From contig JAUTXN010000043.1 in NCBI GenBank assembly GCA_030838045.1, positions 1 to 44,933 of the forward strand: 44,933 nucleotides of DNA, given 5' to 3'. Every line of letters starts with the position of its first letter. The first letter of the stretch is position 1. The notes below the pieces were generated by a model, which was not told the origin of the DNA, did no database searches, and saw nothing but the letters and a program-made list of their open reading frames with translations. Positions 1 to 10,107 of the stretch are shown in pieces. The stretch is from Acidimicrobiaceae bacterium. GTDB taxonomy: Bacteria; Actinomycetota; Acidimicrobiia; Acidimicrobiales; Palsa-688. Position numbers and translations under genes: made by a program.

Positions 1-545
1 CACGAGTCCAGGGCCGGAGTGATCGCCGCCAGCATCTTGGCCGCTGGTACACCGAGGCACACCACCAGACGCGGGGAGAACAACTCGATCTGGGTGCGCA
101 ACAGGGGCTGACAGCGCCGAGTGAACGAAGGCGTCGTCGGGAACGGCTCCGTGTCGGCCGCCCGGTCGGGCAATCCAACGAAGGCGTTGGTCAAGAACAC
201 CTCCTGCGGTGACACCGATGCCAGGAGTTGACGCAGCGCCCGCCACGTCGTCGGGAAGCCGCCGAGATCTCGAGCCAGGATCCGGTTGTAGGAGCGCACC
301 GTCGCCTGATAGTTGCCGACCACGACCAAGCCGTGCTCGGGTGGCGGCGGAAGAGTCTCGGCGACACCGGCACTGCCCGGAGACACGTCCTGCCAGGAAG
401 GTTCCGATAGGAGCCCCGTGGCGCCCGGGAAGAACTGCGGGTCTGCGCACCACTCCGAGACGGGAAACACCCCATCGGGCAGGCCGTCCCCGAAGTCCCG
501 GCCGAGCAGGCCCCGTAGGACCGCTACAGGATGGTCTCCTGGCAT
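1..545 (-). CDS. uracil-DNA glycosylase superfamily-like protein (partial, C-terminus outside window)
   Basis: Reverse-strand translation MPGDHPVAVLRGLLGRDFGDGLPDGVFPVSEW...EVFLTNAFVGLPDRAADTEPFPTTPSFTRRCQPLLRTQIELFSPRLVVCLGVPAAKMLAAITPALDS; UDG-fold-like 'NAF..' and 'SPRLVVCLG..A' motifs. Confidence 0.6.
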   Translation of the reverse strand, partial: MPGDHPVAVLRGLLGRDFGDGLPDGVFPVSEWCADPQFFPGATGLLSEPSWQDVSPGSAGVAETLPPPPEHGLVVVGNYQATVRSYNRILARDLGGFPTTWRALRQLLASVSPQEVFLTNAFVGLPDRAADTEPFPTTPSFTRRCQPLLRTQIELFSPRLVVCLGVPAAKMLAAITPALDS

Positions 546-588
546 GGGCCCGAGGTTAGGCCTGACACCGTGCACGTCCGCAGACCCC

Positions 589-636
589 AGGTGTGCTGAA
601 TTTCCGGTGTGTACACACCGGAAATTCAGCACACCT
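589..636. repeat. 48-bp perfect palindrome, copy 1 (24-bp arms, no loop)
   Basis: AGGTGTGCTGAATTTCCGGTGTGT|ACACACCGGAAATTCAGCACACCT, paired base by base; an outer 11-bp inverted repeat CCGAGGTTAGG (550-560) / CCTAACCTCGG (634-644) overlaps its right end. Confidence 0.97.
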
Positions 637-664
637 AACCTCGGTTTCCGACGAGCAGGGCGGG

Positions 665-779
665 CGTGCGGCCGCTGGTGGATCCCACCGAGTTCAAGGC
701 CGACATCTGGGAGTCGGACGCCGAACTCGAGGAGTTCTTGGCCGACGTTCGACGGTCGCGCAACGCCAACCTCGCCTGA
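665..779 (+). pseudogene. short VapB-like antitoxin remnant
   Basis: Frame reads ..VDPTEFKADIWESDAELEEFLADVRRSRNANLA*, like short antitoxins paired with PIN toxins; no good start codon, and the 5' region carries the palindrome. Confidence 0.55.
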
Positions 780-780
780 C

Positions 781-1130
781 GTCGCTCGCCATGGGGTTCG
801 TCGCCTCGACATTGACGCGGCGTCGCAACTTCAGAAGGAACGACTGCCAATCGACCTAATCGCTCGGCATCTGACGGGCAACCGATTGGCCATGACGTTC
901 GTCACCGAGGACGAGCTGGAAAGTGGGCCGAGCGGCGGTCCTGGGGACCACGACGACGCGACGAGCTCTATACGTGGATCCGCAGGCTCGACGTGCTGCC
1001 ATACGACCAAGAAGTCGCGCGCCGTTGGGGCGGCCTTGCAGCGCGCCCGGAACTCCGGGGTCGACCACGGCCGGTACACAAGAATGTTGGATACGCCGGC
1101 AGAGCAGCCCGTCGCCAGCACCCCGATCCA
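781..1130 (+). pseudogene. VapC/PIN-domain toxin remnant (frameshifted, C-terminus decayed)
   Basis: Frame 1 reads LDIDAASQLQKERLPIDLIARHLTGNRLAMTFVTEDEL; after about 920 the homology continues in another frame as WAERRSWGPRRRDELYTWIRRLDVLPYDQEVARRWGGLAARPELRGRPRP; the usual ND.WIAACC end is missing. Confidence 0.65.
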
Positions 1131-1168
1131 ACAACAATCCCTGCGCTGCAAGGCTTTCTCGGTCTCGG

Positions 1169-10061: not shown

Positions 10062-10107
10062 GGTGGGAGTACAAACCGTCGTCCCCACGACGGTTTGTAC
10101 TCCCACC
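10062..10107. repeat. large inverted repeat/hairpin: 21-bp perfect arms, CCCC loop
   Basis: GGTGGGAGTACAAACCGTCGT-CCCC-ACGACGGTTTGTACTCCCACC between two convergent genes; no T-tract. Confidence 0.95.

Follow-up and report, generated by a model that had tools for sequence, protein, structure and literature searches.

Bacteria commonly carry short palindromic repeats, but most of what is known about how these spread comes from tagged REPs. The GTAG/CGTC REPs have a stem of 5–13 bp and a loop of 2–20 nt (PMC3733652, Table 1). Untagged REP-like palindromic repeats have been noted for M. tuberculosis, D. radiodurans, Bordetella, Brucella and cyanobacteria (PMC3733652). The element described here was first seen in the window, the whole 44,933-nt stretch of DNA that was analysed. 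We hold with moderate confidence that it is a 50-bp non-autonomous mobile loopless hairpin repeat, which would have been spread in the source species by an enzyme acting in trans and recognising the hairpin. The case is compact: copies are few, a sister species (the congener) lacks the element at the examined loci, and the genus has two other palindrome families that are shared differently between species. It permits a direct test of how an untagged palindrome moves and how fast it turns over, and in one protein it shows a palindrome contributing extra residues in frame.

Sequence of the element and its copies

Copy 1 had been described in the original prediction as a 24+24 bp perfect palindrome without a spacer. 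Direct comparison of the arms (589–612 and 613–636, 24 nt each) agrees with this; they are 100% complementary and the spacer is 0. From base composition, the expected number of perfect zero-loop palindromes with 24-bp arms is 3.5e-9 in the window and 3e-7 in 4 Mb, and the core pattern gave no match in 100 shuffles. Alignment across copies sets the length of the element at 50 bp (Table 1). The outer 11-bp inverted repeat reported around copy 1 is indeed present in the sequence, and is probably incidental because the other copies of the element lack it. The neighboring UDG gene has its start codon at 545, about 43 bp from copy 1. The original prediction placed copy 1 between this gene and a decayed toxin-antitoxin remnant; the UDG-like gene was corroborated by a profile match, while the remnant is a by-eye reading of broken frames only. 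The frames adjoining copy 1 on that side are VapBC-like and broken.

Table 1. Coordinates of the palindromic element and associated features in the window
Feature	Position	Strand	Basis
Element copy 1 (50 bp), perfect palindromic core of 48 bp at 589–636	588..637	.	Alignment and arm comparison
Outer 11-bp inverted repeat, 550–560 (CCGAGGTTAGG) / 634–644 (CCTAACCTCGG)	550..644	.	Copy 1 only
Element copy 2, within an ORF and in frame with it, 20/24 core pairs	33112..33161	.	
ORF hosting copy 2, CpaE/P-loop-like by eye	32159..33358	+	ORF reading and congener comparison
Member of the second hairpin family	10062..10107		
UDG superfamily gene, cut by the window edge	3..545	-	PF03167, E 5e-8
Frame-broken VapBC-like remnant, other side of copy 1	642..1137	+	Read by eye, without profile search

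The search of the whole genome and of relatives that the prediction had proposed gave 13 copies in the source genome (a 4.0-Mb draft in 380 contigs, 89.7% complete) and none in the congener. All copies are two-sided, with no half copies. The 50-bp consensus is TAGGCCTGCTGAATTTCCGGTGTGTACACACCGGAAATTCAGCAGGCCTA, and pairwise identity averages 89%. In a half-site search of the source genome the only extra matches were five scattered sequences with two mismatches, against one in the reversed control. An Rfam search returned two tRNAs only. Two of the copies lie at contig ends (L102 at the end of C138 and L108 at the start of C43); the contigs share a 250-bp overlap that is 93% identical, and the element differs by one base between them. 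They are probably one locus in two variants, reflecting strain variation, and we therefore count 12 loci from 13 copies.

The inner ~32 bp of the element is nearly invariant among copies. Variable columns make up 10/18 of the outer ~9 bp of the arms and 5/32 of the inner ~32 bp (Fisher p 0.008), and this greater variation of the outer arm columns suggests a recognised core. The edges are mostly (C)TAGG...CCTA/G, with GTAG only at a few ends. Paired changes between the arms are barely above shuffles (random re-pairing P 0.05–0.08), which falls short of demonstrating that the hairpin is still under selection. This signal is weak, and arm covariation was set aside as evidence.

The second copy in the window (33113–33160) pairs at 20 of the 24 arm positions (83%), and its direct comparison with copy 1 reproduces the 44/48 identity given previously. 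Its in-frame position within a gene is an addition to the earlier description. The element region of the host ORF encodes RCDEFPVCTHRKFSRP, and the protein is 11 residues longer, in frame, than the full-length homologue of the congener, being otherwise collinear around the insertion. A Pfam profile search of the protein gave no matches.

Genomic context and RNA folding

Eleven of the 12 loci are intergenic. The copies occupy convergent (4), tandem (4) and divergent (3) spacers and the interior of one gene, with no clear bias relative to background spacers (26/70/38); in these counts the C138 and C43 copies are taken as one site, as inferred above, and the gene calls, made with a simple codon-usage script, are approximate. 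This mixture of contexts makes the element a poor fit to a promoter operator or a terminator.

The folded copies give RNA free energies of −26 to −48 kcal/mol (z −6 to −11) with stems of 22–25 bp. Transcribed copies would form very stable RNA hairpins and may have a secondary effect on the 3' ends of adjacent transcripts. Such strong hairpins, and a gene 3' end within ~60 bp at 8/12 loci, would suit a bidirectional transcription terminator or an mRNA 3'-end hairpin spread by recombination. It also speaks for this reading that the congener spacer orthologous to the convergent C255 locus holds a different palindrome, a copy of the 75-bp family described below. However, no T-tract follows the stem, as would mark an intrinsic terminator, divergent and in-gene copies exist, and convergent sites are only slightly in excess of background. 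We regard the terminator as an improbable explanation.

Distribution among relatives and turnover of palindromes

Orthologues of eight loci (C97, window 33112, C320, C323, C79, C151, C255 and C236) were compared in the congener. With flanks at 79–90% DNA identity, the element is absent at 8/8 loci; at C320 orthology is on one flank only. At C79 the congener spacer is ~45–50 bp shorter, and in the source genome the left gene ends in a TAG stop that the element provides. Exact junctions are not readable in this comparison because the spacers have otherwise diverged. The copies are either gains in the source lineage or losses in the congener, and gain is favored, since the other relatives all lack the element.

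The absence extends to all 60 relatives searched (the congener and 59 others). Among 397 genomes of the order that were scanned, more than a single match on a strand occurs in the source genome alone; the other 396 have at most one each, which we read as chance. Searches of the GTDB genome collection (genome_contigs) and of viral contigs, plasmids and phages found no copies. Half-site scans gave two matches in genome_contigs and one in viral contigs, all lone half-sites and none palindromic. On these searches the element is private to the source species.

An assembly or binning artefact is very hard to reconcile with these data. The draft assembly is fragmented and chimeric reads can generate palindromes, but the majority of copies lie well inside contigs, independent sites agree in sequence, the flanks match the congener as above, and an open reading frame is kept through one copy.

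More weight is due to the idea that a DNA-binding protein specific to the species binds the copies, either as a dispersed operator or as a nucleoid or segregation site. Nearly all copies have the invariant core GCTGAATT-CCGG-G on each of their two arms, a dimeric binder fits a zero-loop palindrome, and the modest copy number resembles a parS-type set. Against this, the sites are not restricted to regions upstream of genes, since convergent spacers and one gene interior carry them too, the congener lacks the element at every examined locus, and typical operators are much shorter than 50 bp, so that we consider a binding-site set quite unlikely. A conserved operator at orthologous positions is likewise not what the eight congener loci show, in keeping with the original prediction, which favored a dispersed palindromic element over a local regulatory site; the 13 copies and the palindrome-free orthologues agree with that preference. 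A REP/MITE-type mobile element is favored over a local control site because there are ~12 dispersed near-identical copies and the sister species has none.

Two further palindrome families occur in the genus. The second, GAGTACAAACCGTCGT-n4-ACGACGGTTTGTACTC, was found through a search of selected contigs; the source genome has 41 copies and the congener 22, and 39 other relatives have none. Some copies are paired, 73 or 84 bp apart, and arm variants differ between the two species. The third is a 75-bp palindrome, TTGGCAGTT...AACTGCCAA, abundant in the congener (G001), where 22 copies were located (L124–L143, L147); in the source genome, the motif of its arms occurs at close to background frequency. 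With one family shared by both species and one private to the congener, palindromic elements appear to turn over quickly in the genus. By eye, the congener spacer orthologous to C151 (L169) contains an imperfect hairpin of another sequence, CTGGTA...TACCAG.

Possible mobilisation and comparison with known systems

We infer that the element is mobile and that it was dispersed by transposition. After the split from the congener, a trans-acting enzyme recognising the hairpin would have copied the element to new places in the genome, with purifying selection purging most in-gene insertions. Against mobility stand the low copy number and the lack of any enzyme that could be tied to the element in the draft. 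The most plausible substrate would be single-stranded DNA, as for Y1/HUH-type transposases. Such a single-strand mechanism fits because target duplication is not visible; by eye, none is consistent in the 13 flank pairs, and the congener spacers are too diverged for a clean empty site. A Y1 transposase was sought as the mobiliser. The 89.7%-complete source draft has no match to PF01797, and the congener's transposase copy at C499 looks like an IS200/IS605 element, with its own CCCACGACTTCAGTCGTGGG end hairpins that are unrelated to the palindrome.

The element could also be a MITE derived from a DDE-type insertion sequence that the draft does not contain, with the terminal inverted repeats of that sequence as its ends. 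Its architecture, two terminal repeats head to head, and the CTAG-like outer edges of many copies would suit this origin. However, the genome lacks the unpaired ends expected from a multi-copy parent IS, and the lack of a target duplication also weighs against it. The half-site search and a check of the transposase loci found in the incomplete source genome (IS110, rve) gave no parent IS and no element-like ends. We rate this origin as rather doubtful. Similarly tentative is a broader proposal, that this is a minimal mobile element, a loopless 50-bp hairpin alone, whose hairpin-recognising enzyme belongs to neither the REP/RAYT nor the IS partnerships known so far; each species of the genus would have a private palindrome family and quickly replace it.

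Like the GTAG/CGTC REPs and REPINs, the element is dispersed, hairpin-forming, largely intergenic (11/12 loci), occasionally within a gene and species-restricted, as those often are (PMC3733652, PMC3116915, PMC8266576). In contrast to the GTAG/CGTC REPs, it has no GTAG or CGTC tag, and its stem and loop fall outside their size range, the stem being about twice as long or more. Doublets, as in REPINs, are absent, and a RAYT gene was not found in the 89.7%-complete draft. Prokaryotic MITEs are also short, apparently non-autonomous, scattered insertions with inverted-repeat ends (PMC10969869). Here terminal inverted repeats are present in that the whole element consists of two inverted arms; unlike MITEs, it has no internal region. 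A target duplication was not visible in the flanks, and no parent IS was found in the incomplete draft. Copy 2 recalls the Rickettsia palindromic elements, which are palindromic repeats in frame within protein genes (PMC10969869). Those are ~150 bp and often in genes (PMC10969869), whereas the element is 50 bp, lies in a gene at 1/12 loci and belongs to a different lineage, and it does not fall in that class. The untagged REP-like repeats share with it a short, palindromic form without conserved terminal motifs (PMC3733652), and the element, likened to them by description alone, differs in its 22–25 bp loopless stem and ~12 copies. From its sequence features we would describe it as a low-copy, untagged, loopless, REP/MITE-like palindrome, filed in neither class.
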